From Candidatus Rokuibacteriota bacterium (GTDB lineage Bacteria > Methylomirabilota > Methylomirabilia > Rokubacteriales > CSP1-6): a DNA stretch of 38,639 nucleotides. The stretch lies in assembly GCA_016193045.1 (NCBI GenBank), contig JACPSW010000066.1:1-38639 (forward strand), in the 5' to 3' direction. Made by a program: the position numbers and the translations under genes. The number at the start of each line of letters is the position of its first letter. Position 1 is the first letter of the stretch. Of the stretch, positions 9,103 to 32,112 are shown one piece after another. The notes under the pieces are model-generated. The model saw only the letters and a list, made by a program, of their open reading frames with translations, did not search any database and was not told the DNA's origin.

Positions 9103-9103
9103 C

Positions 9104-14030: not shown

Positions 14031-15053
14031 TCACCCGCCCAGCTCCTTCCTCACGACGGCGGCGCCGGCGACCAGCACCCGGATCTTCTGGTTGCACATA
14101 TAGCGCGGCGACCAGCCAAAGCCGCAGTCGGGATTCACGTAGAGCTTCTCGGGCTTCGAGATCTTCAGGACCCGCCGGATCCGCCCGGCCACGTCCTCGG
14201 GGGTCTCGGGATGGAACCCCTTCACGTCGATGACGCCGGCGCCCAGCTCCCGCCCATCGTTGTACTGCTGCCAGAGGTCCAGCTCGGAGAGCTCGCGGCC
14301 GGCAAACTCCAGCACAAACTGATCGGCCCGCGCCTTGAGGAGGCCGGGAAAGTAGGGGCGGTACGTCCGGTTGAAGCGCGAGCGGCCGAAGCGGTTGCCG
14401 AAGCAAACGTGGAAGCCGAGCTTGGCCCGGACGCCCTCGGTCGCCAGGTTGAAGAGGCGCGCCATCTCCTCGCCCGACACGTTGCCGCGCGCGGGCTCGT
14501 CGATCTGGATGAAGTCCGCGCCCGCCGCGGCCAGCCCCTTGAGCTCGGCGTTGATGACTTCGGCGAAACGCTCGGCGACGTCCACGACCCCCTTGTACAC
14601 CTTGCCCGGGTGGATGCGCGAGCCGAAGGTGAGCGGCCCCGCGCACGTCGCCTTGGTGCGCCGGGTCGTGTGCGCCTTCAAATACTCGAACTCCTTCACG
14701 ATGCCCAATCCTCCCGGCGGAGTCTCGATCCGCCCGACCGCCTCGTAGCGCGTCTGCTGATCGTAGCCCCACGGGCCGGCCTTGCGCCTCACCGGGAGCG
14801 CCTGGATCCCTTTGATGATGGCATAATAGGAATCCACATAGCCGTCGAGCCGCCGCACCTCGCCGTCAGTGATGACGTCGAGCCCCGCCCGCTCCATGTC
14901 GCGGATCGCCGTGTCGGCGGCGTCGTCGAACATCTCCTCCAGGTCGGCGGGGCCCCACTCGCCGGCCTCCCAGGCCTTGACGGCCGCGTACCACCAGCCG
15001 GGCTTGCCGTGAGAACCGACGACGGTGGCCGGAATCAGCGGTAGGTCTGCCAT
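14031..15053 (-). CDS. Core-MetE-like zinc methyltransferase 1
   Basis: 340-aa protein corresponding to the C-terminal catalytic barrel of cobalamin-independent methionine synthase, without the N-terminal half. Zinc ligands are recognisable: HVC (His215, Cys217), Glu249 in VLEF and Cys310 in NPDCGF. The homocysteine-side motifs are TVVGSHG near the N-terminus and IQIDEPA (Asp185). The loop that carries the active-site His in canonical MetE (YDIHSP) reads IDVKGF here, with Lys278 in the His position by eye alignment. Stand-alone core MetE proteins use other donors than methyl-THF-polyglutamate, and relatives transfer other alkyl groups, so 'methionine synthase' is not safe. It starts at ATG 15053 overlapping the livF stop (TGATG), tying it to the ABC transporter operon. 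Confidence 0.87.
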   Translation of the reverse strand: MADLPLIPATVVGSHGKPGWWYAAVKAWEAGEWGPADLEEMFDDAADTAIRDMERAGLDVITDGEVRRLDGYVDSYYAIIKGIQALPVRRKAGPWGYDQQTRYEAVGRIETPPGGLGIVKEFEYLKAHTTRRTKATCAGPLTFGSRIHPGKVYKGVVDVAERFAEVINAELKGLAAAGADFIQIDEPARGNVSGEEMARLFNLATEGVRAKLGFHVCFGNRFGRSRFNRTYRPYFPGLLKARADQFVLEFAGRELSELDLWQQYNDGRELGAGVIDVKGFHPETPEDVAGRIRRVLKISKPEKLYVNPDCGFGWSPRYMCNQKIRVLVAGAAVVRKELGG

Positions 15054-15763
15054 CAGGGTGTCCCTCCTATCACTCTCAGGACGGCCGGATCCCTCTGCAC
15101 CTCGCTCGGATGTCCGGAAAAGATGATCTCGCCCCGCTCGATGACGTAGAGGCGCGTCGTATACTCCGGGACGTGGTGGATGTTCGACTCGGCGATCAGG
15201 ATCGCGTGGCCCAGCTTCGTGATCTCGAAGATGCCGCGGCCGATCTCGGGGATGATCGCCGGCGAGAGCCCCTCGAACGGCTCGTCCAGGAGGAGCATGG
15301 TCGGGTCCAGGGCCAGGGCGCGGGCGATCGAGAGCATCTTCCGCTCGCCCCCGCTGATCTGGGTCCCCTTCCGCGCCGCGTAGCGGCGGAGGACGGGAAA
15401 GACGGCGTACGCCTGGGCCAGCCGGTCCTCGGCGGAGCGCCCCGTCCGCCGCGTCCACGTGGCGACCTCCACGTTCTCAGCCACCGTGAGGTCGGCGAAG
15501 ATCGCGCCGTCCTCGGGGGCGAAGCCCATGCCCAGCCGGGCGATCGCGAACGGCCGCATCCCCCCGATCTCCCGGTCGAGGAAGCGGATCCGCCCCGCGC
15601 GCGGCGCCTGGTAGCCCATCACGGTCCTGAGGGTCGTCGTCTTTCCCGCCCCGTTTCTGCCGACGAGGCAAACGACCTCCCGCTCCCCCACGGCGAGCGA
15701 GACGTCGCGCAGGATGTGGCTCGCCTCGATGTAGACGTGCACGCGTTCGACGGAGAGCATCAT
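15053..15763 (-). CDS. livF: Branched-chain-type ABC transporter ATPase LivF
   Basis: 236-aa ATPase of a HAAT-family importer. Walker A GRNGAGKTT, Q-loop region MGFAPEDGAIFADLTVAENV, signature ISGGERKM, Walker B MLLLDEPFEGLSP, then AESNIHH in place of the usual H-loop (the expected His appears as Ser-Asn, a common LivF variation around EQN). The C-terminal YVIERGEIIFSG is typical. The start is the ATG at 15763 overlapping the livG stop. The transported compound cannot be read from the ATPase; the family imports branched-chain amino acids but also amides, urea and aromatic acids. Confidence 0.93.
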   Translation of the reverse strand: MMLSVERVHVYIEASHILRDVSLAVGEREVVCLVGRNGAGKTTTLRTVMGYQAPRAGRIRFLDREIGGMRPFAIARLGMGFAPEDGAIFADLTVAENVEVATWTRRTGRSAEDRLAQAYAVFPVLRRYAARKGTQISGGERKMLSIARALALDPTMLLLDEPFEGLSPAIIPEIGRGIFEITKLGHAILIAESNIHHVPEYTTRLYVIERGEIIFSGHPSEVQRDPAVLRVIGGTP

Positions 15764-16530
15764 CCCCCCCCATCGGGCGTTACGGTTCTCCGGCCCACGA
15801 CGGTGTTCACGACCTCCTCGTTCGCCTTGATCTCGTCCGGCGTGCCGCCGGCGAGCACCCGGCCCTGATGGAGCGCGATGATCCGGTCGGAGTAGCCGAA
15901 CACGATGTCCATGTCGTGCTCGACCTGGATGATGGACTTGATGCCGAGCTGCCGCGAGGCCGAGACGAGGATCTCCATGATGGCATGCTTGTCGCGAGTG
16001 CTGACGCCACTGGTGGGCTCGTCCAGCAGAATGATCTCCGGGTACAGCCCGAAGGCGGAGGCCACGTCCAGGAGCTTCTTGTCCCCCTGCGGGAGGTGCT
16101 TGGACGGCGTGTGGGCCTTCCCCGCCAGCCCGAACAGCTCGGCGATCGCCAGCGCCCCCTCCTGGACCTCCCGGTCACGCGAGAGGCCCCCGAAGAGGCG
16201 GCTCCCCCGGTTAAGTCGCGACACCACCGCCACCTGCAGCGTCTCGAGCACCGTGAGGTCCGGGAAGATCTGGACGAGCTGGAAGCTCCGGGCCATCCCG
16301 AGGCGCGCCAGGCGGACGGGACCGATGCCGCTGATGTCGCGCTCCTTGAAGCGGATCGTGCCCGCGCTCGGACGGAGCGCCCCGGTCAGCACGTTGATCA
16401 GCGTGGACTTGCCCGCGCCGTTCGGGCCGATGATGGAAACGAACTCCCCCGCGTTGACCGCGAGGCTCACGCCGTCCAGCGCGCAGAAGTCGCCGTAGAA
16501 CATCCGCACGCCCTCGGCCCGCAGGATCAT
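15760..16530 (-). CDS. livG: Branched-chain-type ABC transporter ATPase LivG
   Basis: 256-aa ATPase. Walker A GPNGAGKST, the RSFQLVQIFPDLTVLETLQVAV region, Walker B IILLDEPTSGVS, and the H-loop region VEHDMDIVFGYSDRIIALHQG typical of LivG. The signature motif is atypical: LPQGDKK instead of LS(Y/G)GxQR, with the serine and second glycine replaced. The frame runs upstream to 16671, but the ATG at 16530 (MILRAEGVRMFYGD) matches the family N-terminus. It overlaps livF by 4 bp and is separated from livM by 121 bp of hairpin-rich sequence. Confidence 0.92.
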   Translation of the reverse strand: MILRAEGVRMFYGDFCALDGVSLAVNAGEFVSIIGPNGAGKSTLINVLTGALRPSAGTIRFKERDISGIGPVRLARLGMARSFQLVQIFPDLTVLETLQVAVVSRLNRGSRLFGGLSRDREVQEGALAIAELFGLAGKAHTPSKHLPQGDKKLLDVASAFGLYPEIILLDEPTSGVSTRDKHAIMEILVSASRQLGIKSIIQVEHDMDIVFGYSDRIIALHQGRVLAGGTPDEIKANEEVVNTVVGRRTVTPDGGG

Positions 16531-16535
16531 ACCTC

Positions 16536-16598
16536 GGAGGGGGGCTCCGCCCCCCTTCCGATACCTCCCCCCAGGGATTGCGCTGGCAAAGCCAGCGC
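16536..16598 (-). other. Two hairpins in the livM-livG gap
   Basis: The 121-bp gap 16531-16651 holds no gene. Stem 1: GGGGGGC (16539-16545) with GCCCCCC (16549-16555), loop TCC. Stem 2: GCGCTGGC (16580-16587) with GCCAGCGC (16591-16598), loop AAA. A third short stem, GACAC/GTGTC, lies at 16639-16651. They separate membrane-protein and ATPase cistrons and may set relative mRNA levels; no T run marks a terminator. Confidence 0.55.
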
Positions 16599-16651
16599 TC
16601 GATCGAGGGCGCGGTCGCGCATCGGTTGGATGCGGGTTGACACGGGGTGTC

Positions 16652-17611
16652 TCATACGCGCGACACCTCACCGGGACGGCGACCCGCGAAGAGTCCCATG
16701 AGGCCGCCCGGAGCGAAGATCACCAGGAAGGCCAGGAGGGCGCCGAAGACGAGCCGCCAGTACGGCACCACCGACATCACGGTGTCCTGGAGGAAGATGA
16801 ACACGAACGCCCCCAGCACGGGCCCGAAGAAACTGGCAAAGCCTCCGAGCAGCGTCATGAACACGATGTTGCCCGAGTGGGTCCAGTAGGCGAGGGTCGG
16901 ATCCACGTTGCCCGTCGGCGGCCCCAGGAGCGCGCCGCCCGCCGCCGCGTACACCGCCGAGATGACAAACGCGTACCAGCGATAGCGCGCGATGCTGATT
17001 CCGAGCGCCTCGGCCTTCGCCGGGTTGTCGCGAATGCTGCGAAGGCAGAGGCCGAAGGCCGAGTGGACGATGCGCCACATGACGAGCGCCGCGAGCGCCA
17101 GCACCCCCAGCGAGTAGTAGTAGTACGGCCCCGCCAGATAGTCGATCTTCGCCAGCGCCTCCAGGTCGAAGCCCAGCAGCGACGGGCGGAGGACCCGGAT
17201 CCCCTCGTCGCCGCCGGTCAGCCGGTAGAACTTCAGGAGGAAGGTGTAGAAGAGCATCCCGAAGGCGAGGGTGAGCATGCTGAAGTAGATCTTCACGTAG
17301 CGGACGCAGAGGGCCCCCACCGGGGCGGCGACGAGCGCCCCCAGCGCGGCTGCGGTCAGGAGGATCAGCTCCAGCGAGCGCACACCGAAGTGCGTGGTGA
17401 GGACGGCGCCGGTGTAGGCGCCGATCCCCATGAAGAGGGCGTGACCGAAGGAAACCAGGCCCGTGTAGCCGAAGAGCAGGTTCAACCCCAGCAGGATGAC
17501 GGCGTAGGCCATGAAGGGGAGCATCAGGAGGACGTGGTAGACGGGGGCCGCGAGCGGCAGCGCGAGAACGGCGGCCGCGGCCACCCCCAGCACCAGGCGT
17601 CCTCGGCTCAA
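16652..17611 (-). CDS. livM: Branched-chain-type ABC transporter permease LivM
   Basis: About 319-aa permease with eight to nine hydrophobic segments. LivM hallmarks: LGLNLLFGYTGLVSFGHALFMGIGAY near the N-terminus, the RSIRDNPAKAEALGISIARYRWYAFVIS coupling region, and TLLGGFASFFGPVLGAFVFIFLQ near the end. The frame is open to GTG 17677, but the TTG at 17611 has a strong GGAGGG 7 nt upstream and removes a non-family N-terminal tail (MARVGAKPALEQ...), so TTG is the likely start. livH lies 97 bp upstream, with a strong hairpin in between. Confidence 0.9.
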   Translation of the reverse strand: MSRGRLVLGVAAAAVLALPLAAPVYHVLLMLPFMAYAVILLGLNLLFGYTGLVSFGHALFMGIGAYTGAVLTTHFGVRSLELILLTAAALGALVAAPVGALCVRYVKIYFSMLTLAFGMLFYTFLLKFYRLTGGDEGIRVLRPSLLGFDLEALAKIDYLAGPYYYYSLGVLALAALVMWRIVHSAFGLCLRSIRDNPAKAEALGISIARYRWYAFVISAVYAAAGGALLGPPTGNVDPTLAYWTHSGNIVFMTLLGGFASFFGPVLGAFVFIFLQDTVMSVVPYWRLVFGALLAFLVIFAPGGLMGLFAGRRPGEVSRV

Positions 17612-17666
17612 AGGAATACCCTCCAAAGCACGACTCCGGCCTTGTTCGAGCGCGGGCTTCGCCCCG

Positions 17667-17693
17667 ACCCGCGCCACCTCAAGTGGCGCGGGT
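17667..17693. other. Perfect 11-bp stem hairpin between livH and livM
   Basis: ACCCGCGCCAC (17667-17677) and GTGGCGCGGGT (17683-17693) pair perfectly around CTCAA. It sits in the 97-bp livH-livM gap, just before the Shine-Dalgarno of livM. Without a T run it is more likely an mRNA stability or processing hairpin, or a REP-like palindrome, than a terminator. Confidence 0.6.
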
Positions 17694-17708
17694 ACCCGCC
17701 GAAGAAGC

Positions 17709-18596
17709 TCAAACCGCCACCCGCCCGAAGAGGCCCCGCGGCCGCAGGACCAGGACGGCGATCACGATCAGATAGATCATCAGCATTTCCAGTTCCGGGT
17801 AGACGGCGATGGCGACCGCGCGGAAGACGCCCACCACCAGCGCGCCGACGAAGGCGCCGCGCATGCTGCCGAGGCCGCCGATCACCACGACCGCGAAGGC
17901 CTCCACGATCAGCTCGATCCCCATCTCGCTCATGGCGGCGGTGGCGGGGATGACGAGCGCGCCGCCGAGCGTCCCCAGCGCCGTCCCGAGCGTAAAGACT
18001 TTCGCGTAGACCCAGCGCATGTCCACGCCGAGCGCCTCCGCCATCTCGCGGTTGTCGGCGGCAGCGCGGATGATCCGGCCGAACGCCGTGCGGGCCAGGA
18101 GCCAGCCGATGCCGAGCGCGATGGCGAGGCTCGCCCCGATGACGATGAGGTTATAGACGGGCACGGTAGCGCCGAGCAGGTTGACCTGGCCGTAGGTGAG
18201 GTAGAGGGCGGAGGTGGAGTAGGGCGCCGTGCCCCAGGTCAGGCGAACCACGTCCTCGAGCATCAGGACGAGCGCGAAGGTCAGCAGGAGCTGGAAGGTC
18301 TCGTCTCGATCGTAGACGAAGCTCAAGAGCCCGCGCTCGACCACGACCCCCACGACCCCGACGAGGAGGCCCGCCAGGGCCAGGGGGAGAATGAACAGAG
18401 CCGGGGGGCCCCCGGCGGCCGTGAAGGCCTGTACCGCCGAGACCCCCACGTAGGCGCCGAGGGCGTAGAACGACCCGCACGCGAGGTTGAAGATCCGCTG
18501 GACCCCGAACACCACCTGGAGCCCCGCCGCGACCAGAAAGAGGATCGCGGCGTGGAAAACCCCGCCCATCAAGATGTTGACCAGGTTCGCGGCCAT
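17709..18596 (-). CDS. livH: Branched-chain-type ABC transporter permease LivH
   Basis: 295-aa permease, about eight hydrophobic helices. Features: GLQVVFGVQRIFNLACGSFYALGAYVG (LivH entry motif), the RAAADNREMAEALGVDMRWVYAKVFTLGTALGTLGGAL coupling loop, and VVIGGLGSMRGAFVGALVVG near the C-terminus, all standard for the family. I prefer the ATG at 18596 over the GTG at 18608, because the latter runs into the upstream palindromic repeat. The binding-protein gene livK lies 52 bp upstream, with a repeat copy in the gap. Confidence 0.92.
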   Translation of the reverse strand: MAANLVNILMGGVFHAAILFLVAAGLQVVFGVQRIFNLACGSFYALGAYVGVSAVQAFTAAGGPPALFILPLALAGLLVGVVGVVVERGLLSFVYDRDETFQLLLTFALVLMLEDVVRLTWGTAPYSTSALYLTYGQVNLLGATVPVYNLIVIGASLAIALGIGWLLARTAFGRIIRAAADNREMAEALGVDMRWVYAKVFTLGTALGTLGGALVIPATAAMSEMGIELIVEAFAVVVIGGLGSMRGAFVGALVVGVFRAVAIAVYPELEMLMIYLIVIAVLVLRPRGLFGRVAV

Positions 18597-18602
18597 GCTC
18601 GG

Positions 18603-18648
18603 CCCCACCCCTCTCCCCCGGAGGGGAGAGGGTAGGGTGAGGGGTGAG
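18603..18648. repeat. Palindromic repeat copy B, between livK and livH
   Basis: CCCCTCTCCCC and GGGGAGAGGG pair around CGGA, with a flanking TAGGGTGAGGGGTGAG arm. The design matches copies at 3093-3142 and 37729-37808. Here it fills the livK-livH gap, where it may also act as an mRNA hairpin protecting the binding-protein message. Confidence 0.7.
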
Positions 18649-19941
18649 CTAGCCCTTCAGCGGGAAGGTGGCGTTGATCCAGTCCAGGAGCTTGGTGCTC
18701 GTCGTCGGCTTCATGATCTTCGCCGTGGGCAGCACCTCCACCGGATCGATCGTCACGAAGTCGAACGCGTTCTTGTGCGTCGTGATCCCCTGGAAGAAAT
18801 TGCACATCTGGACGTGGTCGGCGCGCCAGCTGCGCTTGCCCGACAGGGACTCCACCTCGATCCCCTCGAGCGCCTTGGCGACCTGCTCCTTGGACGGCCA
18901 CTCGCCGGCCGCCTTGTAGGCCTTCTCCACCCCGGCCTTGTACGATTCCACCGTGAAGTAGCCGTGGTCGCACTCGTAGGGCGGGTACTCCCCGTACTTG
19001 GCCTTATACTCGCGCACGAACTGCTTCAGGAGGGGGCTCGCGCCGGCGTGGTTGAAGTACATGCTGTTGTAGCCCAGGATCAGCCCCTCCGGCGTGAACT
19101 CTTTCTTCAGCGAGTCGTGGACCCCGCCGCCGGTCGTGAAGCACGCCTTCATCGTCTTGAAGAGGCCCACCGCCGCAGCCTGCTTCATGAGGATCGTCGT
19201 GTCCCCCGACCAGAAGCTCGTCATCAGGAGGTCGGGCTTGGCCTGCTGGATCGCCGCGATGTGAGAGGTGAAGTCGGTCACGCCCAGCTTGGGGAAGAGC
19301 TCCAGGACGGACTTGACGCCCGGCGTGTAGCGCTTGAGGACCGCCTGGTAGGTCTCCCAGCAGTCGTGGCCGTAGGAGTAGTCGTTGTTGATGCCCGCGA
19401 TCGTCTTGACCCCCTTGAAGTACTTGGCCGTGAGGAGCGCGCCGCCGATCGCTTCCACCTCGTTGTCCACGCTCCGGAAGGCGTAGGTCGGGTTCGGCAT
19501 CGTCTCCTCGACGCCCTTCTGCGTCGTGCCGTCCCACGACAGCCAGAGCATCTTCAGCTCCTCGGCGGCCGGACCCAGGGCGAGGCCGACCGCGGTGGAG
19601 ATCCCTCCGACGATGACATCCACCTTCGCCTGCAGCGCCAGCTTCCGGAAGCGCTCGAGGGTGTCCTTCGGGTTGGACTCCTCCTCGAAGACCAGCTCGA
19701 CCTTCCGGCCCAGAATGCCGCCCGCCTTGTTGACCCGCTCGGCCCACCACTCGACGCCCCGCTGGCCGGCCGCCCCTACCGGCGCCGCCACCCCCGCGCG
19801 GATCGGCATGACGCCGATCTTCACCGGACCCGACGGGACGCCTTTGCGCGCCTGGGCGCTGACCACGGCGGGAAACCCCACCGCGCTGCCTGCCGCCGCC
19901 ACTCCCACTCCCTTGAGGAACTCGCGCCTGCTCGTCTCCAT
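18649..19941 (-). CDS. livK: Branched-chain-type ABC transporter binding protein, Tat signal
   Basis: 430-aa periplasmic binding protein of the Leu/Ile/Val (type I) fold. The N-terminus carries a twin-arginine signal, TSRREFLKG, followed by a hydrophobic Ala/Gly stretch to SAQA (about residue 31). The mature part starts VKIGVMPIRAGVAAPVGAAG and contains the family segments VELVFEEESNPKDTLERFRK, VDVIVGG, INNDYSYGHDCWETY and the C-terminal VEVLPTAKIMKPTT. AAGGAGG precedes the ATG at 19941. Substrate is unknown; the neighbours (CaiC-like ligase, crotonase, FAD oxidoreductase) argue for an organic acid or betaine-like compound rather than an amino acid, but this is inference. Confidence 0.9.
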   Translation of the reverse strand: METSRREFLKGVGVAAAGSAVGFPAVVSAQARKGVPSGPVKIGVMPIRAGVAAPVGAAGQRGVEWWAERVNKAGGILGRKVELVFEEESNPKDTLERFRKLALQAKVDVIVGGISTAVGLALGPAAEELKMLWLSWDGTTQKGVEETMPNPTYAFRSVDNEVEAIGGALLTAKYFKGVKTIAGINNDYSYGHDCWETYQAVLKRYTPGVKSVLELFPKLGVTDFTSHIAAIQQAKPDLLMTSFWSGDTTILMKQAAAVGLFKTMKACFTTGGGVHDSLKKEFTPEGLILGYNSMYFNHAGASPLLKQFVREYKAKYGEYPPYECDHGYFTVESYKAGVEKAYKAAGEWPSKEQVAKALEGIEVESLSGKRSWRADHVQMCNFFQGITTHKNAFDFVTIDPVEVLPTAKIMKPTTSTKLLDWINATFPLKG

Positions 19942-19965
19942 GCCCCCCTCCTTAGTCTGGTTGTT

Positions 19966-21516: not shown

Positions 21517-22271
21517 CGCTTCCGCCTCCGCTCCAGGAAGCTCCGGAGGCGCCCCTGAGCCTCGTCGCCGGCCAGGCAGCCGGCGAAAGCCTGGGGCTCC
21601 CCCCCGCGCACCGGCCCCACGATGTCGGCGAGCACGCGCTTCGTCGCTTTGATGCCGCCCGCGGGAAGCCGCGCGAGCTCGCCCGCCCACCGGAGCGCCT
21701 CTTCGAGCAGCCGGTCGGCAGCCACCACGCGGTTGACGAGGCCGATCCGCCGCGCCTCGGTTGCGTCGAAGGTGGCGCCGGAGAGGATCAGCTCCCGCGC
21801 CCGGGCCTCCCCGACCAGGCGCACCAGCCGGTGGATCCCGTAGGCGGGGGGCCACCCCAGCGTGATCTCGGGAAGGCCGAAGCGGGCCCCGTCGGCCGCC
21901 AGGCGGAGGTCGTGGGAAGCGGCCAGCACGAGGCCACCTCCGAGGGTGACGCCGCCGACGGCGGCGAGCGTGATCAGCGGGAGCGCCGCCCAGCGATCGA
22001 GGAGCAGCCCCTGGGTGGTCGCGAGCGCCTCGGCCTCGCGCGGCGTCAAGGCGGCCGTCTCCTTGAGGTCGTTGCCGGCGCAGAAGGCCCGGCCCGCGCC
22101 GCGGGTCACCACCACCTTGAGGCCCGGCTCGCTCACGAGCCGCTCGGCGACCCGGCCGAGCTCGGCGGTGAGCCCGCGGTCCAGGGCGTTCAAGGCGTCC
22201 GGCCGGTTCAGCGTGACGAGCGCCACCGCCCCTCGAAGTTCCACCTCGACGAGCGCGCCGGCCACCGTCAT
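21513..22271 (-). CDS. Enoyl-CoA hydratase/isomerase (crotonase) family protein
   Basis: 252-aa crotonase-fold protein acting on acyl-CoA thioesters. The oxyanion hole is formed by AFCAGNDLKE and GGVTLGGGL, and GLPEITLGWPPAYGIHRL carries the second catalytic Glu. The first hydratase Glu, normally in GGGCE, is replaced (GGGLV), so this is probably not an ordinary 2-enoyl-CoA hydratase; isomerase, dehydratase or hydrolase activity is possible. It overlaps both neighbours by 4 bp: the metE-like gene upstream and the CaiC-like ligase downstream. The mix of a CaiC-like ligase and crotonase resembles carnitine-type CoA pathways, but there is no CaiA/CaiB here. Confidence 0.9.
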   Translation of the reverse strand: MTVAGALVEVELRGAVALVTLNRPDALNALDRGLTAELGRVAERLVSEPGLKVVVTRGAGRAFCAGNDLKETAALTPREAEALATTQGLLLDRWAALPLITLAAVGGVTLGGGLVLAASHDLRLAADGARFGLPEITLGWPPAYGIHRLVRLVGEARARELILSGATFDATEARRIGLVNRVVAADRLLEEALRWAGELARLPAGGIKATKRVLADIVGPVRGGEPQAFAGCLAGDEAQGRLRSFLERRRKR

Positions 22272-23305: not shown

Positions 23306-23307
23306 CG

Positions 23308-24966: not shown

Positions 24967-26605
24967 CCGGCGACCCTCCTTGCCGGCCCGCCCCCTGGGC
25001 GCGGAGCTCCGAGCGCTTGATCTTCCCCGTCGCCGTCCGCGGAAAGTCCTCCACGAGCTCGACCTCGCGCGGGTACTGGTGGGCGGCGAGCCGCCGCTTC
25101 ACGGTCTCCTGGATCTCCTTGACCAGGCCGGGCGAGCCGACCGCGCCCGCCTTGAGCCGGACGAAGCCCTTGACGATCTGCCCGCGCACCGGGTCGGGGA
25201 TCCCGACCGCCGCCGCCTCCGCCACGGCCGGATGGGCCAGCATGGCCGCTTCCACTTCGGCCGGGCCGATCCGATACCCGGCGCTCTTGATCAGGTCGTC
25301 GTTGCGCCCCTGAAACCACAGGTAGCCGTCGGCGTCGAGCCGCGCCGTGTCCCCGGTGCGGAACCAATCCCCGGCGAACTTCCCCCGCGTGGCGTCGGGG
25401 TCCTTCCAGTAGCCCAGGAGGACGCTCGGCGCCTCGCGGTGAACGCCGATCTCGCCCACTTCGCCGACGGGAACCTCCTCCCCTGCCTCATCCATGATGA
25501 GCACGCGATAGCCCGGGAAGACCCGCCCCATGGAGCCCGGGCGCACCGGAAAGAGCGCCGAGCAGTTGCCGACGTAGAAGGTGGTCTCGGTCTGGCCGTA
25601 GAACTCGTGGACCGGCGCGCCCAGGGACTCCCGCGCCCACGCCACGATCTCGGGGTTGACCGGCTCGCCGCCGCTCGTGATGGTCCGGAGCGCCAGCCCG
25701 AACCGCCGCGGGTCCGGCACCTCCATCATCAACCGGAGCGCGGTGGGAGGCAGGAACACCCCCGTCACCCGATGGCGGGCCATCAGGGCGAAGGCCGCCT
25801 CGGGATCGAAGCGCTCGCGCGCCGTGCCCACCACCGGGCGCCCGCACCACCACGCCGTCAGGAGGAGGTCGAAGAGCCCGCCGACCCACGCCCAGTCGGC
25901 AGGGGTCCAGAAGACGTCGTCCGGCCGGGGGGCGAAGTTGTGGAGGAGCTGGAACGGGGGGACGAACCCGATCAGCTTCCGGTGGGCCTCGAGCGACCCC
26001 TTGGGCGGCCCGGTGGTCCCCGAGGTGTAGAGGATCATGGCCGGATCCTCGGCCCGGGTGGCCGCGCCGGGATGCCGATCGGCGGCGCGGTCGAGAAGCC
26101 CGCGCAGATCCCGGTCGGGCGGGGCGCCGGGGTCGGCGACGAGGACGCGACGCAACTCGGGCAAGCGGTCCGCGATCTCGGCCACCTTGGCGGCATTCGG
26201 CGCGTCGGCGACGACGACGGCCGTTCCGCTGTGGGCCAGCCGGTATTCGAGGGCGGGCGCCGCGTAGAGCCGGGAGAGCGGCACCGCGACGGCGCCGAGT
26301 CTGTGGATCCCCAGGTGCGCCACGAGCACCTCCGGGCGCTGGGGCATGATCAGCGCCACGCGGTCGCCGCGCCCGATGCCGAGCCCCGCCAGCACGTTGG
26401 CGCAGCGGCAGCCGAGGCGGTCCAACTCGGCGAAGGTGTAGGGGCGGGCCCGGCCCGCGGCGTCCTCGTAGATCAGCGCGACGGCGGCCGGATCTCCGGC
26501 GTGGCGGCCGCACACCGCCTCGGCCAGGTTATAGCGCTCCGGCACGTTCCAGCGGAACCGCGCGCGCGCATCTTCGAAGGACGCGTACTCTCCCGCGCGG
26601 ATCAT
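24956..26605 (-). CDS. Acyl-CoA synthetase (ACSM-like AMP-binding family)
   Basis: 549-aa acyl-adenylate/CoA ligase. Motifs: ILYTSGTTGPPKG (about residue 190), HEFYGQTET acyl/adenylate motif, hinge WFRTGDTARLDADGYLWFQGRNDDLIKSAGYRIGPAEVE and C-terminal ATGKIKR with the catalytic Lys. N-terminal FRWNVPERYNLAEAVC is typical of medium-chain or aromatic-acid synthetases (ACSM/benzoate-type). The start is the ATG at 26605, 22 bp after the dctM stop, so it is the first enzyme gene behind the TRAP transporter. It is a paralogue of the ligase at 34882-36528 (shared FNxxxDxxDxWAxDP-type layout and GYRIGPxEVE). Confidence 0.92.
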   Translation of the reverse strand: MIRAGEYASFEDARARFRWNVPERYNLAEAVCGRHAGDPAAVALIYEDAAGRARPYTFAELDRLGCRCANVLAGLGIGRGDRVALIMPQRPEVLVAHLGIHRLGAVAVPLSRLYAAPALEYRLAHSGTAVVVADAPNAAKVAEIADRLPELRRVLVADPGAPPDRDLRGLLDRAADRHPGAATRAEDPAMILYTSGTTGPPKGSLEAHRKLIGFVPPFQLLHNFAPRPDDVFWTPADWAWVGGLFDLLLTAWWCGRPVVGTARERFDPEAAFALMARHRVTGVFLPPTALRLMMEVPDPRRFGLALRTITSGGEPVNPEIVAWARESLGAPVHEFYGQTETTFYVGNCSALFPVRPGSMGRVFPGYRVLIMDEAGEEVPVGEVGEIGVHREAPSVLLGYWKDPDATRGKFAGDWFRTGDTARLDADGYLWFQGRNDDLIKSAGYRIGPAEVEAAMLAHPAVAEAAAVGIPDPVRGQIVKGFVRLKAGAVGSPGLVKEIQETVKRRLAAHQYPREVELVEDFPRTATGKIKRSELRAQGAGRQGGSPGGA

Positions 26606-26627
26606 GTGGGGCCTCTGCGGCGCGCCG

Positions 26628-27947
26628 TCACTTGCCGATCATGGTGTTGGGGAGCCAGAGGGCGATCTCCGGAAATGTCATGACCAGCGCGAGGCCGACG
26701 ATCTGGAGGATCAGGAACGGCCAGATGGAGTGGAAGATGTCGCCGATGGTGATCTCGGGCGGGGTGACGCCCTTCAGGTAGAAGACCGCCGGGCCGAAGG
26801 GCGGCGAGAGATAGGAGATCTGCATGTTCATGCAGAACAGGACGCCAAACCAGACCGCGTTGAAGCCCAGGCTCTCGACGATGGGGACGAAGATCGGCGC
26901 GGTGAGCAGGAGGATCCCGATCCAGTCGATCAGGCTGCCGAGGATGATCCAGACGATCTGCATGAGAATCACGATCCCCCATGGGCCCACCGGCAGGGCC
27001 GTGATCGTCTGCTTCATGAAGTCCGTGCCGCCCGCGAGGGTGTAGACGCCGATCAGCGCCGAGGCCCCGAAGAAGAGCCAGTAGAGCATGCACGTCACCT
27101 TCGTCGTGTCCCTGACGGCGCCGACGATGTTGGGCCAGGTGAGGCGCCCGTGAACCGTGGCCGAGACCAGGGCGCCGAGCGCGCCGACGCCTGCCGCTTC
27201 GCTGGGCGTCGCGAAGCCGAGGTAGAGCGAGCCCAGCACGCCGAAGGCGACCAGGCCCGGGAGGACCAGCCCCTTCAGGAGCGCGAGCTTGGCCAGCAGA
27301 GGGATGCTCCGCTCCTCCTCGCTGGCCGCCGGGGCCAGCTCCGGTTGGACATAGCACCGGATCGTGATGTAGGTGACAAACAGGCTGGCCAGAATCAGGC
27401 CGGGCATCACCCCCGCCATGTAGAGCCGGCCGACCGAGACCCCCGCGGTGAGGCCGTACATGATCAGGACGACGCTCGGAGGGATCAACGTGGCGAGCCC
27501 GCCGCCGGCGCAGATGCTGCCGAGCGCGATATCCCTGTCATACTTGCGGCTCAGCATGGCCGGCAGCGCCACCACCCCCATCGTGACGACCTCCGCCCCG
27601 ATGACGCCCACCATGGCCGCCATGATCGCGCACGAGATGATGACGGCGATGGCCAGGCCGCCGCGCAGCCGCCCCGACCAGACGTGGACGGCCCGGAAGA
27701 GCTCCTCGGCGACGCCCGCCCGCTCCAGCACGCACGCCATGAAGATGAAGAGCGGCACCGCCACGAGGACGTAATTGCCCATCAGCGTGAAGATGCGGCT
27801 GACGACCAGGGTCAGGCTTTGCGGCCCGAAGAGGGCCACGGCGAAGATCACGGCCACGGCCCCCGTGGCGAAGGCCAGCGGGAGGCCGGCGCCCAGCACG
27901 GTGACGAAGGAGACGATCATCAAGACCGTGATCCATTCGATACTCAC
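26628..27947 (-). CDS. dctM: TRAP transporter large permease DctM
   Basis: 439-aa membrane protein of the DctM (12-TM type) family. Family features: VAVPLFIFMACVLERAGVAEELF, AVIISCAIMAAMVGVIGAEVVTMGV, the GGGLATLIPPSVVLIMYGLTAGVSVGRLYMAGVMPGL signature and LLTAPIFVPIVESLGFNAVWFGV. It uses an ion gradient to drive uptake with DctQ and DctP. The start is the GTG at 27947, sharing GTGA with the dctQ stop; the open frame upstream is a shadow of dctQ. Confidence 0.94.
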   Translation of the reverse strand: MSIEWITVLMIVSFVTVLGAGLPLAFATGAVAVIFAVALFGPQSLTLVVSRIFTLMGNYVLVAVPLFIFMACVLERAGVAEELFRAVHVWSGRLRGGLAIAVIISCAIMAAMVGVIGAEVVTMGVVALPAMLSRKYDRDIALGSICAGGGLATLIPPSVVLIMYGLTAGVSVGRLYMAGVMPGLILASLFVTYITIRCYVQPELAPAASEEERSIPLLAKLALLKGLVLPGLVAFGVLGSLYLGFATPSEAAGVGALGALVSATVHGRLTWPNIVGAVRDTTKVTCMLYWLFFGASALIGVYTLAGGTDFMKQTITALPVGPWGIVILMQIVWIILGSLIDWIGILLLTAPIFVPIVESLGFNAVWFGVLFCMNMQISYLSPPFGPAVFYLKGVTPPEITIGDIFHSIWPFLILQIVGLALVMTFPEIALWLPNTMIGK

Positions 27948-28444
27948 GGCCGCGTCCCCGCGCGCGCGGCATAGAAGTCCCGGACCACGTTCGCCAGCCC
28001 CTGAAGCAGCACCAGCGCCCCCGCCACGGGGATCGCGAGCTTGACGGGATAGATCGGAGGGTTCCACGGTGTCCCGGCCGTCTCCCGTTCGAGGATGGAG
28101 CCCCACGCGAAGAGCCAGCCGACCCAGATCAGCGTCAGCATGTAGATGACGAAAAACAGGAATGTCACCAGATCGAGGCGGGCGCGCGTTCGGGGCGACA
28201 GCCGCTGGTAGACCACGTCCACGATGACGTGGCGCCGGTACAGGAGCGTGTACCCGCCGCCCAGGAGGTAGGCCATCGCGGTGACGTACACCATCGTCTC
28301 GTTCGCCCAGAGCGTCGGCCGGCCGAACACGGACCGCATCACGACTTCATAGACGACCACCCCCACGATGAACACGATCTGGAACCCGACGATGCGCCCC
28401 GTCCACTCGTTGAGCGCGTCGATCGCCCCGAAGAGTCGCCGCAT
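27944..28444 (-). CDS. dctQ: TRAP transporter small permease DctQ
   Basis: 166-aa four-helix membrane subunit. Features: VVVYEVVMRSVFGRPTLWANETMVYV (family motif in helix 2 region), MAYLLGGGYTLLYRRHVIVDVVY, and the terminal LVLLQGLANVVRDF. The start is the ATG at 28444. A 60-bp gap with a 13-bp hairpin separates it from dctP, and it overlaps dctM by 4 bp, so Q and M are translationally coupled. Confidence 0.93.
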   Translation of the reverse strand: MRRLFGAIDALNEWTGRIVGFQIVFIVGVVVYEVVMRSVFGRPTLWANETMVYVTAMAYLLGGGYTLLYRRHVIVDVVYQRLSPRTRARLDLVTFLFFVIYMLTLIWVGWLFAWGSILERETAGTPWNPPIYPVKLAIPVAGALVLLQGLANVVRDFYAARAGTRP

Positions 28445-28454
28445 GCCCGATCAT

Positions 28455-28483
28455 TCAGAGGGGGCCGAACCGGCCCCCTCTGA
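28455..28483. other. 13-bp hairpin between dctP and dctQ
   Basis: TCAGAGGGGGCCG (28455-28467) and CGGCCCCCTCTGA (28471-28483) pair perfectly with loop AAC. It sits in the 59-bp gap between the TRAP binding-protein and permease genes. No T run follows on the minus strand. Such hairpins often stabilise the upstream binding-protein mRNA or attenuate downstream permease expression. Confidence 0.75.
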
Positions 28484-28503
28484 TCCCTCCCGCGTCAACG
28501 GGT

Positions 28504-29553
28504 TCACGCCAACAGGCCCAATTCCTTCAGCCAGGCCTTCTGCGAGTCCACCGCCTTCTTGGCCAGCGGGCTCTTCTTCGCCCACTCGTCCCAGGTCGCC
28601 TGGGCGAGCGCCCGGAGCTTGCGGAGCTCGTCCTCCTGCCAGCCGACGAACGTCACCCCGCCCTTCTTCTGGAGCTCTTCGACCACGCGGATGTCGTCGA
28701 TCGCCACCCGCTCGACCTGGGTCCACGCCCACTCGCGGACGGCCGCCTCCAAGATGCCCTTGATGTCGTCCGGCAGGGCCTTCCACGCGCTCATGTTCAC
28801 CGCGAACTCGTGGATGGGCATGGAGTGGAAGCCCGGATAGATGGGGTACTTCGCCACTTCGTGGAATCCCATCCGCTGATTCATCGAGATCGTCGCCCAA
28901 TCGGCCGCGTCCACCACGCCCTTATCGAGGGCGGAGTAAACCTCGCCGCCCGGCAGGACGACCACGGATGCCCCGAGCTTCGTGAGGATCTCGGCGGTCA
29001 TGCCATGCGGGGCGCGGAACTTCACCCCCTTGAAGTCTCCCATCTTTCGGATCGGCTTCTTGGACGGGATGGACTCGACCCCCCACCAGGCGACACCGAC
29101 GGGATAGACGTTGTACTTGGCGTAGGCCTCTCGGAGCATCTCGAGCCCGCCCTTGTAGTGGAACCAGGCATCGTGCTGCCAGGGATGCGTGTAGCCGAAG
29201 ACGAAGTCGCTGATGACGGCGAGCCCCGGGTCCTTGCCCGTCCAGTAGCCGGGCCAGGAGGACTGCGCCTGGAGGACCCCCGCGCTGACCGCGTCCAGGG
29301 TCTCGAATGCTCCGGTCACGGCCCCGGCCGAGAACGGGGTGATCTCCAGCCGGCCGTTGGTCAGCTTCTTGACCCGCGCGCAGAACTCCTCGAAGATCTT
29401 GTAAGTCAGCTCCGCCGAGCTCCAGAGCGACTGCGCCTTCCACTTGTGGACCTGCTGCGCGCGGACGATGGCGGGGCCCCCCACAATGGCCGCGCCGGCG
29501 GCGGCCGCGGCTGTCCCCGCCGCCTTCACGAACTCACGCCTGCTCTTCTCCAT
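28504..29553 (-). CDS. dctP: TRAP transporter binding protein, TakP-like, Tat signal
   Basis: 349-aa extracytoplasmic binding protein. Twin-arginine signal KSRREFVKAAG then an Ala-rich hydrophobic stretch to VRAQQ (about residue 33). The mature part has the DctP fold motifs FKGVKFRAPHGMTAEILTKLG (conserved ligand-binding Arg in KFRAP), PGGEVYSALDKGVVDAADW and PGFHSMP. The VVLPGGEVYSAL...DAADW pattern resembles the subgroup binding alpha-keto acids (TakP-like) more than C4-dicarboxylate DctP, but the ligand is not settled. The start is the ATG at 29553, behind GGGGAGGA. A weak promoter at 29643-29671 precedes it, making it the likely head of the operon that runs down to the liv genes. Confidence 0.92.
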   Translation of the reverse strand: MEKSRREFVKAAGTAAAAAGAAIVGGPAIVRAQQVHKWKAQSLWSSAELTYKIFEEFCARVKKLTNGRLEITPFSAGAVTGAFETLDAVSAGVLQAQSSWPGYWTGKDPGLAVISDFVFGYTHPWQHDAWFHYKGGLEMLREAYAKYNVYPVGVAWWGVESIPSKKPIRKMGDFKGVKFRAPHGMTAEILTKLGASVVVLPGGEVYSALDKGVVDAADWATISMNQRMGFHEVAKYPIYPGFHSMPIHEFAVNMSAWKALPDDIKGILEAAVREWAWTQVERVAIDDIRVVEELQKKGGVTFVGWQEDELRKLRALAQATWDEWAKKSPLAKKAVDSQKAWLKELGLLA

Positions 29554-29642
29554 GCCGTCCTCCCCTTTCCGTTACCGGGTGAACTGCCGCGTGGCTCCGT
29601 CCTGATGAGCGGGTTCCTTCCACCCCCTTCCCAAGCCCTCCG

Positions 29643-29671
29643 ACCTTACGTCCGTGTGGCAGTCGCGTCAA
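29643..29671 (-). promoter_or_regulatory. Possible sigma70-type promoter of dctPQM
   Basis: TTGACG (29666-29671), 17-nt spacer, TAAGGT (29643-29648) on the minus strand. The -35 is good, the -10 matches consensus at only three positions. It begins at the metF-fusion stop codon and lies about 90 bp before dctP. Nothing else is seen in the 114-bp gap. Confidence 0.4.
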
Positions 29672-31107
29672 TGGCCGGGTCCCCGCGCCGGCGGCGCCGG
29701 GGCCCGCTCGAGGAAATAGTTGATCCAGGAGCTGCTCCCCTGCAGATGGCGGTCCGGGGCCGGGAGGTACGCCCGGAGGTCCACGAGGCGGTTCGCCGCC
29801 TTGGCGCGCTCGTACACCTGACCCCAGATGCACGGCTTGTCCACGACCTCGCACCGGCCGAGGTGGGCGCCGCCGCACGGGCCGTTGCGCATCTGCTTGG
29901 GGCAGGTCTGGGGGCAGACGTACTCCATGTGCCCCAGGACGCAGTTGCCGCAGGCCTGGCAGCCGAACGCCGGTCCCTTGATCGCCATCTCGACGCGCTC
30001 GAGTCCCCGCGCCAGCAGCGGGAACCGATCCACCCACCCGAAGAATCCGCGCAGGAGCCGGCGGAGCCAGCTCTCCCGCTGCACGGGAAACAGCCGCCCG
30101 AGCGCGTCCAGGGCGACGGGAATCGCGTGGCGCCGTCGGCTCACGCTCCGCGCGCCGCCCTCATAGAGGTAGAAGCCGTCCCGCGGCGCGTACGTCGGCT
30201 CCGCGGCGAACTCTTCCCAGCGCGGGGCGAGCGCCTCGGCCCGCTGGATGATCCACGCGATCTGCCCTGCGTCGTGGGTGCCGCCGAGGTACGCGCCGGC
30301 GTACCCCAGGCCGCGGAGAACCGCCACCATGCGCGCGGCCCGCTCGAGCCGCGCCGCCTGGCCGCCGTCCCCGGCCGCGCTCTCGCGGCGCACCGCTTCG
30401 AGCAGCTCGGGCGCCACCCAGCAGCCGGGCGGCTCGCCCTTCGCCATTTTTTCGGCCCCGCGCAGATTCAGGAGGTACACGTTCCCCAGGACCGGCGTGC
30501 GGACCCCGCCCTCGTGGAGGTAGCGCATGAGCTCGCGGAACTTGCGGGCGTCGTACCCGAGCTGGGTGATCGCCACATCCGCGCCCGCGGCGATCTTCTT
30601 CTCCAGCTTGAGGTACTGGTAGAAGCAGTCCGCCTCCGTGTACTTGAAGGGCGAGACCGCCACCGCGACGTGGAACGGCATCCCCGCCCGCCGGAGCTCG
30701 CTGATGAGGGCCACGAGCTGCACCGAGTCCAGGTCGAAGACGGCGGGCGGGCGGTCCTGTCCCACCGGCGCCGTCGGGTAATCGCCGGTCATCGCGAAGA
30801 CGTTCTCGATGCCGAGGGCGTGGAGGTCCTCCAGCGTCTTCCGGAGCCCGTCACGGTCCTGGCTCACGCAGGTCAGGTGGATGTTGGGGGTGAGGCCGCG
30901 CGCCCGGGCGGCGGTGCCCACCCGGATCGGATCGTGCCCCGGCGCGCCCCCGGCGTAGCTCGTGACGCTCCCGGCCACGACGCCCGGGCACGAGGCCAGG
31001 CGCGCCGCCACATCCAGGAGCCGGGCTTCGCGCGCCAGGCGCGAGGCCACCAGCTCCACGACGTAGCAGAAGCGCCCCGCGGCGAGCGCCTCCCTGAGCG
31101 GGTTCAC
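29668..31107 (-). CDS. Methylenetetrahydrofolate reductase fused to an MTHFR_C (MetV-type) domain
   Basis: 479-aa two-domain protein. Residues about 1-290 form a MetF-like barrel (PF02219 type): YVVELVAS with the catalytic Glu18, GSVTSYAGG, AMTGDYP with Asp109, and FPFHVAVAVSP-type strand. Residues about 375-440 carry eight cysteines (383, 386, 389, 398, 402, 411, 419, 426) in the CQACGNC...CPQTCPK...NGPCGG...GRCEV...PCIW pattern of MTHFR_C (PF12225, MetV). In acetogens MetV is a separate subunit that helps MetF; here both are in one chain. It should reduce methylene-THF to methyl-THF, or run in reverse in an oxidative pathway; electron partner unknown. Start GTG 31107 behind GGAGG, 3 bp after metE-like 3. 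Confidence 0.88.
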   Translation of the reverse strand: MNPLREALAAGRFCYVVELVASRLAREARLLDVAARLASCPGVVAGSVTSYAGGAPGHDPIRVGTAARARGLTPNIHLTCVSQDRDGLRKTLEDLHALGIENVFAMTGDYPTAPVGQDRPPAVFDLDSVQLVALISELRRAGMPFHVAVAVSPFKYTEADCFYQYLKLEKKIAAGADVAITQLGYDARKFRELMRYLHEGGVRTPVLGNVYLLNLRGAEKMAKGEPPGCWVAPELLEAVRRESAAGDGGQAARLERAARMVAVLRGLGYAGAYLGGTHDAGQIAWIIQRAEALAPRWEEFAAEPTYAPRDGFYLYEGGARSVSRRRHAIPVALDALGRLFPVQRESWLRRLLRGFFGWVDRFPLLARGLERVEMAIKGPAFGCQACGNCVLGHMEYVCPQTCPKQMRNGPCGGAHLGRCEVVDKPCIWGQVYERAKAANRLVDLRAYLPAPDRHLQGSSSWINYFLERAPAPPARGPGH

Positions 31108-31110
31108 CCC

Positions 31111-32112
31111 TCAGGCCTCCAATTCTTTCCGGACCAGGCGCGTGCCCTCGACCATGGCGCAGAGCTTGGCGAAGGCCACGTCCCGCGGCAGATGGAGGCA
31201 CCCGCAGTCGGGGTTGACGTAGAGCCGCTCCGCCGGCACGATCTCGAGCGCCTTGCGGATCCGCTCCGCCACCATGTCGGGCGTCTCGACGGTGGGATTC
31301 TTCACGTCGATCACCCCGAGCCCGAGCTCGAAGGGGGCCTTGAACTCGCGGAAGAGGGCCACATCCTCTTCGCCCCGCCGCGCGAATTCCAGCGTGAGCT
31401 GCTGCACCCGGGCGTCGAGGATCGCGGGGAACAGGTAGCGGTAGCTCCCCTCCCACGTGGGCTTGCCGTAGCGGTTCCCGTAACAGATGTGGAGCCCGAT
31501 CTTCGCGTCCACCCCCTCCGTCAGGACGTTGAGCACCTTCACGCCCCAGCCCACGTCCTCCGGGAAGCCCGAGTAGTACGGCTCGTCGATCTGGAGGTAC
31601 GTCGCCCCGGCCTTCACCAGCTCGCGGAGTTCCAGGTTCATCACGCGCGCGATGTCCAGCGCGAAGGCCTCCTCGCTCGGGTAGTACTCGTTCCGGATCC
31701 GCCGGACCAGCGAGTGCGGGCCGGTGATGGAGAACTTCGTCGGCCGCTCCGTGAACCGGCGCAAGAACTTGAAGTCGTCCACGAGCCCCAGCGGTGCCGT
31801 CGGGAGCTTCCCCCGGACCACGCTGTCGAAAAAGTCGTAATAGAACTTCTTCGAGGCGTGGTCGATCTGCACTCCGGGAAGGCGGCCGGCGAAGTAGTCG
31901 ATCATGTTGTCCCGCCGCAGCTCGCCGTCGGTCACGATGTCGATCCCGGCCATCTCCTGGTCCTTGATCGCGGCCTTGACCGCCGTATCGTGGATCTCCT
32001 CGAGGTCGTGCCGGCTGATCCGGCGGAGGAAGTAGTCGGTTTTGAGCCGCTCCAGCCAGCCGGGCATAGAGTAGCTGCCGACGACGGTGGTGGGCAGGAG
32101 CATCAGGCCCAT
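31111..32112 (-). CDS. Core-MetE-like zinc methyltransferase 3
   Basis: 333-aa catalytic-domain-only MetE relative. Zinc ligands: HIC (His208, Cys210), Glu242 in TLEF and Cys302 in VNPDCGC. N-terminal TVVGSYSMPGWL and LQIDEPYYSGFP (Asp-Glu) match the homocysteine-site region. The canonical DIH loop is DVK again (Lys271 in VIDVKNP). The start is the ATG at 32112 with GGAGGGGAG upstream. It forms a pair with the MetF-MetV fusion (3-bp gap), the one place in this window where folate supply and methyl transfer are directly coupled, so this copy may be the best methionine-synthase candidate; the substrates of all three remain unproven. Confidence 0.87.
   Translation of the reverse strand: MGLMLLPTTVVGSYSMPGWLERLKTDYFLRRISRHDLEEIHDTAVKAAIKDQEMAGIDIVTDGELRRDNMIDYFAGRLPGVQIDHASKKFYYDFFDSVVRGKLPTAPLGLVDDFKFLRRFTERPTKFSITGPHSLVRRIRNEYYPSEEAFALDIARVMNLELRELVKAGATYLQIDEPYYSGFPEDVGWGVKVLNVLTEGVDAKIGLHICYGNRYGKPTWEGSYRYLFPAILDARVQQLTLEFARRGEEDVALFREFKAPFELGLGVIDVKNPTVETPDMVAERIRKALEIVPAERLYVNPDCGCLHLPRDVAFAKLCAMVEGTRLVRKELEA

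Follow-up and report, generated by a model that had tools for sequence, protein, structure and literature searches.

Canonical MetE, a methionine synthase, combines a catalytic barrel that carries the zinc and homocysteine sites with an N-terminal folate barrel, and in the T. maritima enzyme Trp539 stacks on the pterin (available text of PMC539065). MesD is a core MetE that lacks the folate domain, and its gene is adjoined by the unrelated gene for MesX (DUF1852), which is proposed in the accessible part of PMC7857596 to serve MesD in a methyl-donor role. Demethylation is also tied to methionine or thiol chemistry in the mtgBCD glycine betaine/methionine system (PMC12478193) and in the mlp clusters (PMC10418091), and these are corrinoid-based as far as the available portions of both papers describe them. 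Here we examine three core-MetE genes, named MetE1, MetE2 and MetE3 (copies 1 to 3), on a 38,639-nucleotide stretch from a Candidatus Rokuibacteriota bacterium. This stretch (the window) makes up contig C153 in an assembly of 3.86 Mb and 181 contigs. The copies fall into two conserved modules: MetE2 and MetE1 enclose a LivKHMGF transporter set (module A), and MetE3 follows an uncharacterised gene, unk_MT, and precedes a MetF-MetV fusion (module B). The MetE2-LivKHMGF-MetE1 array and the unk_MT-MetE3 pair are the strongest new facts, and neither module is described in the titles and abstract openings of the papers listed in searches of the open literature. We favour, tentatively and with slightly less than even confidence, a reading in which module A carries out import-coupled demethylation and module B is a separate methionine-forming unit, both using core-MetE enzymes without the folate barrel or the pterin-stacking Trp.

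MetE1, MetE2 and MetE3 are complete open reading frames (ORFs) of 340, 345 and 333 amino acids, each with a single PF01717 domain (cut-off 21 bits) and none with a match to the BHMT/MmuM domain PF02574. MetE1 and MetE2 are 49% identical, and MetE3 shares 41% identity with MetE1 and 39-40% with MetE2. Like MesD, and unlike canonical MetE, the copies show no N-terminal folate barrel: PF08267 matches weakly, and over the PF01717 stretch. A query for the N half of split MetE (splitN) matched the core enzymes themselves at these loci, and no split partner was seen.

Active-site residues were compared in an alignment of 142 MetE1, 135 MetE2 and 164 MetE3 rows (the window, survey loci and homologs, near-identical rows included), with positions as given in the available text of PMC7857596. 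The zinc ligands H641, C643, E665 and C726 (HxC/E/C) and the homocysteine contacts S433, E484 and D599 are present in all three copies, as in MesD, and are nearly invariant across the aligned rows. The exceptions at these seven positions are one S433 gap in MetE1, one C726 to Arg change in MetE2 and three S433 gaps in MetE3. In contrast, the epoxyalkane:CoM transferase of Xanthobacter (EaCoMT), a control that uses coenzyme M (CoM), keeps the zinc ligands and D599 but carries Asn at S433 and Arg at E484. Because this control differs at S433 and E484, the residue test can tell acceptors apart. The retention of S433, E484 and D599 in the copies therefore favours homocysteine, and we infer that it is the methyl acceptor of all three enzymes.

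These residues bear directly on an earlier suggestion that the methyl group is passed to another thiol. An enzyme acting on a non-amino-acid thiol, like EaCoMT, would accord with the 32% identity of MetE1 to the Xanthobacter 2-hydroxypropyl-CoM lyase, and EaCoMT (L135) resembles the copies in fold family, zinc ligands and placement in a catabolic gene cluster. However, all three copies have the homocysteine-type Ser and Glu where the Xanthobacter enzyme has Asn and Arg, and a tree separates them from it, albeit on a long branch of unsure place. We consider this explanation very improbable.

The position of Trp539 is Arg in all MetE1 rows, Gln in all MetE2 rows, and Arg in 163 and Lys in one of the MetE3 rows. 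MetE2 has a short insertion nearby, so that its Gln as the partner residue rests on the alignment. The same position is Pro in 15 rows of MetE4, a fourth paralog, and Trp in the genome's own split MetE. Taken with the missing folate barrel, the replaced Trp539 supports the inference that methyl-folate is probably not the direct methyl donor. The Met468 position is Met in the window's MetE3, Tyr in MetE1 and Phe in MetE2. Several aromatic residues are invariant within single groups (W21, Y72, Y76, W95 and others in MetE1; F18, F22, F71, Y95 and others in MetE2). An aromatic cage for cationic donors was considered on this basis, and no claim is drawn from it.

Other described core-MetE enzymes share this architecture and are set apart by published residues. 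According to the accessible text of PMC7857596, MesA and MesC have Gln at E484, most MesC have His at C643, and the characterised MesB has Asp at E665. Glu at E484 and Cys at C643 occur in all rows of the three groups, so the MesA and MesC features are not seen, and E665 distinguishes the copies from the characterised MesB. MesB is further marked by a link to CoFeSP of the Wood-Ljungdahl pathway. In a tree of 56 rows, which leave out MesA, MesB and MesC, MetE1, MetE2 and MetE4 form one clade (100/100) joined by the MetE3 rows (98/92), whereas the MesD references and a further copy from this genome, on contig C22, form a separate clade (100/100). The MesD clade is sister (99/92) to a clade of Aminobacter, Roseomonas and Nonomuraea proteins, a join that may be false, and EaCoMT and both split MetE halves sit on long branches whose placement is unsure. 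The phylogeny that had been proposed for these proteins thus places the copies apart from EaCoMT, with the caveat just given, and outside the MesD clade, with MesA to MesC not among its rows.

The parallel with MesD lies in architecture and in gene arrangement, since an unrelated gene adjoins MetE3 as MesX adjoins MesD. Compared with the known MesX-MesD loci, copies 1 to 3 lie outside the MesD clade, the partner of MetE3 has a MidA-like fold and is not MesX, and MetE1 and MetE2 have a transporter in place of such a partner. No MesX adjoins the copies among the profiled window genes. A search of the genome for MesX gave no match, and 14 control genomes were equally without a match, so that absence is not implied. 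The MesD-clade copy (L010:6864-7916) lies on contig C22 of this same genome, in which no MesX turned up and for which the MesX controls were equally silent.

A preliminary description of this DNA had placed core-MetE genes with zinc ligands at 14031-15053, 22268-23305 and 31111-32112, and the ORFs, PF01717 scores and alignment agree with it. Profile matches likewise bear out the neighbours that it named (Liv transporter, oxidoreductase, crotonase, ligases, a tripartite ATP-independent periplasmic (TRAP) transporter and the MetF-MetV fusion). Not mentioned in it are the gene at 32298-33737 (minus strand), which immediately precedes copy 3, and another four PF01717 genes elsewhere in the genome. 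From 38.6 kb down to 14.0 kb, all named genes share the minus strand and are closely spaced or overlap; the widest intergenic gap, between unk_MT and MetE3, measures 185 nucleotides (nt). ABC denotes ATP-binding cassette, CoA coenzyme A, AMP adenosine monophosphate, FAD flavin adenine dinucleotide, SAM S-adenosylmethionine and Tat twin-arginine translocation. The genes are as follows.

14031..15053, minus strand: MetE1 (copy 1), core-MetE enzyme, last gene of the Liv operon (PF01717, 85.3 bits; 1-nt overlap with LivF)
15053..15763, minus strand: LivF, ABC ATPase (PF00005; UrtE/LivF-type models match, all below cut-off)
15760..16671, minus strand: LivG, ABC ATPase (PF00005, weak PF12399)
16652..17677, minus strand: LivM permease (PF02653)
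17709..18608, minus strand: LivH permease (PF02653)
18649..19941, minus strand: LivK substrate-binding protein with Tat signal (PF13458; TIGR01409 over cut-off)
19966..21513, minus strand: AMP-forming CoA ligase C (PF00501)
21513..22271, minus strand: enoyl-CoA hydratase/crotonase (PF00378)
22268..23305, minus strand: MetE2 (copy 2), core-MetE enzyme (PF01717, 112.4 bits)
23308..24966, minus strand: FAD-dependent oxidoreductase, 2 nt from MetE2 (PF12831, 311.7 bits)
24956..26605, minus strand: AMP-forming CoA ligase B (PF00501)
26628..28106, minus strand: DctM, TRAP large permease, true start probably inside the ORF (by sequence; 39% match to a PF06808 DctM protein in L010)
27944..28444, minus strand: DctQ, TRAP small permease (PF04290)
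28504..29553, minus strand: DctP, TRAP binding protein (PF03480)
29668..31107, minus strand: MetF-MetV fusion, module B (PF02219 and PF12225)
31111..32112, minus strand: MetE3 (copy 3), core-MetE enzyme, module B (PF01717, 152.1 bits; tree)
32298..33737, minus strand: unk_MT, uncharacterised partner of MetE3 with a predicted MidA/COG1565-like SAM-methyltransferase fold
33734..34885, minus strand: acyl-CoA dehydrogenase (PF00441/PF02770/PF02771)
34882..36528, minus strand: AMP-forming CoA ligase A, of ACSM / 4-hydroxybutyrate-CoA ligase type (PF00501)

Gene neighbourhoods were sampled at 30 MetE1 loci (drawn from at least 44 full-length matches in 43 genomes), 26 nearly full-length MetE2 loci, 42 MetE3 loci from Rokubacteria and Acidobacteriota, and 12 MetE4 loci. 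Family-wide counts refer to 57 genomes of the host's family, and the MetE1 and MetE2 tallies in them rest on the matches listed. In relatives, a LivK-H-M-G-F operon ends with MetE1, and its LivK is closely preceded by MetE2, so that MetE2-LivKHMGF-MetE1 is a conserved array in this family. LivF is directly upstream of MetE1 within 120 nt at 22 of the 30 loci and within 170 nt at 24; six show no LivF in the sequenced stretch, and in two of these (G004 and G030) the Liv set lies 1.4-3 kb upstream. At 20 of 26 loci LivK follows MetE2 on the same strand, with a gap of at most 947 nt (at most 150 nt at 15 loci) and no reference gene between. MetE1 was found in 50 of the 57 genomes (43 full-length, 7 partial) and MetE2 in 27 (26 nearly full, 1 partial). 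All 27 MetE2 genomes also carry MetE1, two of them as partial matches, and in 20 of these the pair lies within 12 kb on one contig. MetE2 orthologs of at least 80% identity were confined to the host's family among 60 relatives compared.

As a paralog control, none of the 12 MetE4 loci (3.6-20 kb each) carries these Liv genes at 60% identity or above, and one has a distant Liv set at 30-35%. The nearest solved structures to LivK (8tg1, 3i45, 3i09 and 4ey3, E ~1e-16) are too distant to name the ligand. Further genes lie upstream of the array in other genomes. At L045:3-5530, three tandem genes for TrpX-type ABC binding proteins are followed by a fourth after a CoA ligase. A hydratase and members of one protein cluster, of the creatininase family in L050, recur in L050, L053, L057, L058 and L060, where they precede the Liv array or MetE2.

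The gene directly upstream of MetE2 encodes an acyl-CoA dehydrogenase at six of the 26 loci (orthologs at 77-80% identity), CoA ligase C at four, a hydratase at three, the FAD oxidoreductase at two and MetF/MetV at one; ten loci have no reference gene there, some of them with little upstream sequence. A CoA-ester enzyme thus adjoins MetE2 at 13 of 26 loci, and therefore the imported substrate is probably a carboxylate. Relatives of CoA ligase C (63-87%) occur in L041, L042 and L052. The FAD oxidoreductase adjoins MetE2 in L041 and, in L052, lies upstream of it with a CoA ligase between; against solved structures it gave four weak matches, each of at most 60 residues near the N-terminus. The acyl-CoA dehydrogenase and ligase A are ~80% identical across genera, and in the window both lie upstream of module B. 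The solved structures nearest to ligase A are 3etc (an AMP-binding protein), ACSM2A and 4-hydroxybutyrate-CoA ligase, and those nearest to the dehydrogenase are general acyl-CoA dehydrogenases. As a combination, the ligase, dehydrogenase and hydratase resemble the DmdB-C-D set of the dimethylsulfoniopropionate route. Given the structural relatives just named, no case is made for that route.

These catabolic genes also speak to a salvage function, in which module A would take up methionine-like thioethers or sulfoniums (methionine, S-methylmethionine) and move a methyl group between homocysteine and that amino acid. Amino acids are frequent ligands of Liv-type binding proteins, and the enzymes keep their amino-acid-binding residues, both of which would fit. 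However, CoA ligases, acyl-CoA dehydrogenases and hydratases beside MetE2 would not be expected in such a pathway and point to a carboxylate degraded as its CoA ester, which makes salvage quite unlikely.

Module B has a different constant element. At all 42 MetE3 loci unk_MT adjoins MetE3, with gaps of 6-168 nt, and the 14 of 57 family genomes that have either ortholog have both, again side by side. MetF/MetV lies directly after MetE3 at 28 of the 42 loci, a count that leaves out a match in L120 (33%) that is not an ortholog beside MetE3. G002, of the same genus, carries the MetE3 unit in the gene order of Rokubacteria bacterium CSP1-6. The protein encoded by unk_MT reaches no Pfam or NCBIfam cut-off (13.7 bits against PF02636, MidA, with a cut-off of 23.3). 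Its predicted fold is similar to MidA/COG1565, and its tie to MetE3 distinguishes it from MidA/NDUFAF7. It may have either a MesX-like donor role or a plain SAM-methyltransferase role. In L064, L087, L089, L092, L097, L103 and L105, which include a relative of the same order and several Acidobacteriota, unk_MT is closely preceded by another, distant core-MetE gene. This gene has 23-30% identity (PF01717 at 66.7 bits in L089; L087 by a partial match).

The preliminary description had united the three enzymes in a single pathway: import by TRAP and ABC transporters, methyl transfer to a thiol or folate, oxidation of the methyl group through MetF/MetV, and degradation of the acid as a CoA ester. 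All three copies indeed lie in one co-directional run in the window, and the modules are also linked in G010 (unk_MT-MetE3-MetFV-MetE2-LivK, L044) and in G038, where 1.5 kb separate the MetE3 unit from a MetE1 ortholog (L064). However, 28 Acidobacteriota loci carry module B without Liv, MetE1 or MetE2 orthologs (distant matches only, at ~30% or less), and MetE3 occurs in 14 of 57 family genomes versus 27 for MetE2. Module B is missing from most family genomes that have MetE1 or MetE2, again among the matches listed. Because of these genomes and of the Acidobacteriota in which module B stands alone, we read A and B as two conserved modules, sometimes side by side, and not as one system.

Individual steps of that pathway fare differently. 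MetF/MetV travels with copy 3 and adjoins MetE2 at one of 26 loci, so that oxidation by this route is not supported. TRAP genes are rare companions: the 20 loci L041-L060 contain a single ortholog (DctM, 82%, L052), and at two of 42 MetE3 loci MetF/MetV is followed by distant TRAP genes (25-33%). We therefore find the single pathway, as a whole, decidedly improbable. Its core of import, methyl transfer and CoA-dependent catabolism does hold up as the best reading for the array of copies 1 and 2, because the Liv genes are conserved, CoA genes are frequent and folate features are missing; it does not extend to copy 3. The neighbourhood survey that the preliminary description proposed has thus found the context of the copies to be conserved.

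The genome has seven PF01717 matches, four of them outside the window. Two are adjacent on contig C115 (328 and 333 aa, the first with PF08267 at 87.9 bits, the second with the strongest PF01717 score, 281.3 bits), and this pair reads as a putative split MetE. Its C half (L008:1444-2445) has Ala at the zinc-ligand position Glu665, with the other ligands and the pterin Trp present. Contig C77 encodes two PF02574 proteins, one of them a PF02574-PF02219 fusion, together with a B12-binding protein and a protein with a sub-threshold Met_synt_B12 match, a set that reads as a probable MetH in pieces. As far as the genome can be read, other methionine synthases are therefore not lacking, a lack that the preliminary description had named as speaking against its proposal. 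Given the split MetE and the MetH pieces, methionine synthesis is probably covered without the window's three copies. MetE4 (L009:3758-4813) is on contig C66 of this genome, near a TRAP transporter and a 364-aa protein (8693-9787) without a Pfam or NCBIfam match; in L073 and L079, relatives of this protein (41-48%) occur at a distance of 7-8 kb from MetE4. The 364-aa protein may be of the UGSC type.

This inventory helps to weigh the simplest alternative, that all three copies are ordinary biosynthetic methionine synthases fed by methyl-folate or a methyl-corrinoid protein, with transporters that are incidental or import methionine precursors. Their zinc and homocysteine residues are intact, MetF/MetV commonly follows MetE3, and databases label many relatives methionine synthase. 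Yet the copies lack the folate domain and the pterin Trp, up to 21 matches to the MetE1 query occur per genome (among the matches listed) beside the apparent split MetE and split MetH found here, and the order of MetE1 and MetE2 with the Liv genes is conserved. Moreover, unlike the mtgBCD and mlp systems, neither the window nor the 82 survey loci hold a relative of the genome's own corrinoid protein, other corrinoid families not having been searched for. We regard this alternative as unlikely.

The residues, the conservation of the array and the presence of other methionine synthases therefore lead us to prefer import-coupled demethylation for module A. LivKHMGF would import a methylated carboxylic compound, and MetE2 and MetE1, with zinc-bound homocysteine as nucleophile, would take the methyl group directly from it to form methionine. 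The nearby ligase, acyl-CoA dehydrogenase and hydratase would then convert the residual acid to its CoA ester and oxidise it. Gene order with its conservation, co-occurrence of the genes and retention of the residues are direct observations; the steps of the mechanism differ in strength. That the imported compound is the donor is a weaker proposal than the choice of acceptor; it is suggested because the enzymes flank the transporter and the loci contain nothing related to the genome's own corrinoid protein. Passage of the demethylated acid to the neighbouring CoA enzymes is the weakest. Module B is likely to be a separate methionine-forming unit, in which unk_MT, the constant partner of MetE3, would supply or relay the methyl group from which MetE3 makes methionine, and MetF/MetV would feed methyl-folate nearby, in the way that MesX is proposed to serve MesD.

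Several observations weigh against these proposals. In the window and in L041, a CoA ligase separates MetE2 from LivK (with a hydratase as well in the window), four of 26 MetE2 loci show no LivK in the sequenced stretch, one of them cut by a contig end, and in G025 only a piece of LivK and LivF lie between MetE2 and MetE1, with H, M and G not found. About 23 family genomes have MetE1 without MetE2 among the matches listed, module A with MetE2 is seen in one family only, and the MetE1 ortholog of G038, from another family, adjoins MetF/MetV (L064) and not LivF. The acyl-CoA genes vary by genome and are of common types, and the ligase and dehydrogenase match no particular methyl-compound enzyme. 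It is chemically demanding for a zinc thiolate to take a methyl group from a small molecule that lacks activation such as that of a sulfonium or a quaternary amine, and a donor protein or corrinoid may be encoded elsewhere. For module B, MetF/MetV is absent downstream at nine of 42 loci despite at least 2.4 kb of sequence there, and the unk_MT fold model has a mean predicted local distance difference test (pLDDT) score of only 73.

A stronger and more doubtful version of the proposal, though a possible one, is a catabolic, corrinoid- and folate-free demethylation of a methylated carboxylate imported by a dedicated ABC transporter, in which the two zinc enzymes on either side would pass methyl groups one after another to homocysteine, to leave as methionine, together with a core MetE of Rokubacteria and Acidobacteriota that has an obligate MidA-like donor partner. 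If import-coupled demethylation is correct, cofactor-free methionine formation would be the way by which environmental methyl groups enter metabolism in uncultured phyla, and some of the many genes annotated as methionine synthase in these phyla would really be demethylases. Module B would add a second core MetE that is linked to a partner unrelated to it, and bears on the methyl donors of such enzymes.

Core-MetE enzymes of another clade recur next to uptake and degradation genes. An Aminobacter plasmid relative lies in the order TRAP, hydrolase, core MetE, citryl-CoA lyase, CaiB and LigB-type dioxygenase, and a Roseomonas plasmid relative in the order catechol-type dioxygenase, Liv set, dehydrogenase, NTF2-like protein and core MetE. 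Aromatic O-demethylation was considered in view of relatives beside ring-cleavage dioxygenases (L129 and L131). These belong to the other clade, sister to MesD, and no relatives of the two dioxygenases were found at E 1e-8 in the window and 43 queried loci; we keep the idea as a lead only. In G001, of the same genus as the host, a DAO-family oxidoreductase gene precedes a core-MetE gene of the Aminobacter/Roseomonas clade (L125:7397-12638), with a GcvT-family gene 1.6 kb further on, a stretch that recalls N-methyl amino acid breakdown.

A search for riboswitches and other RNAs in seven sources (134,806 bases) gave no match at the gathering score. In the window, a gene for a YnfA/UPF0060 membrane protein (13686-14015) lies 15 nt past MetE1.

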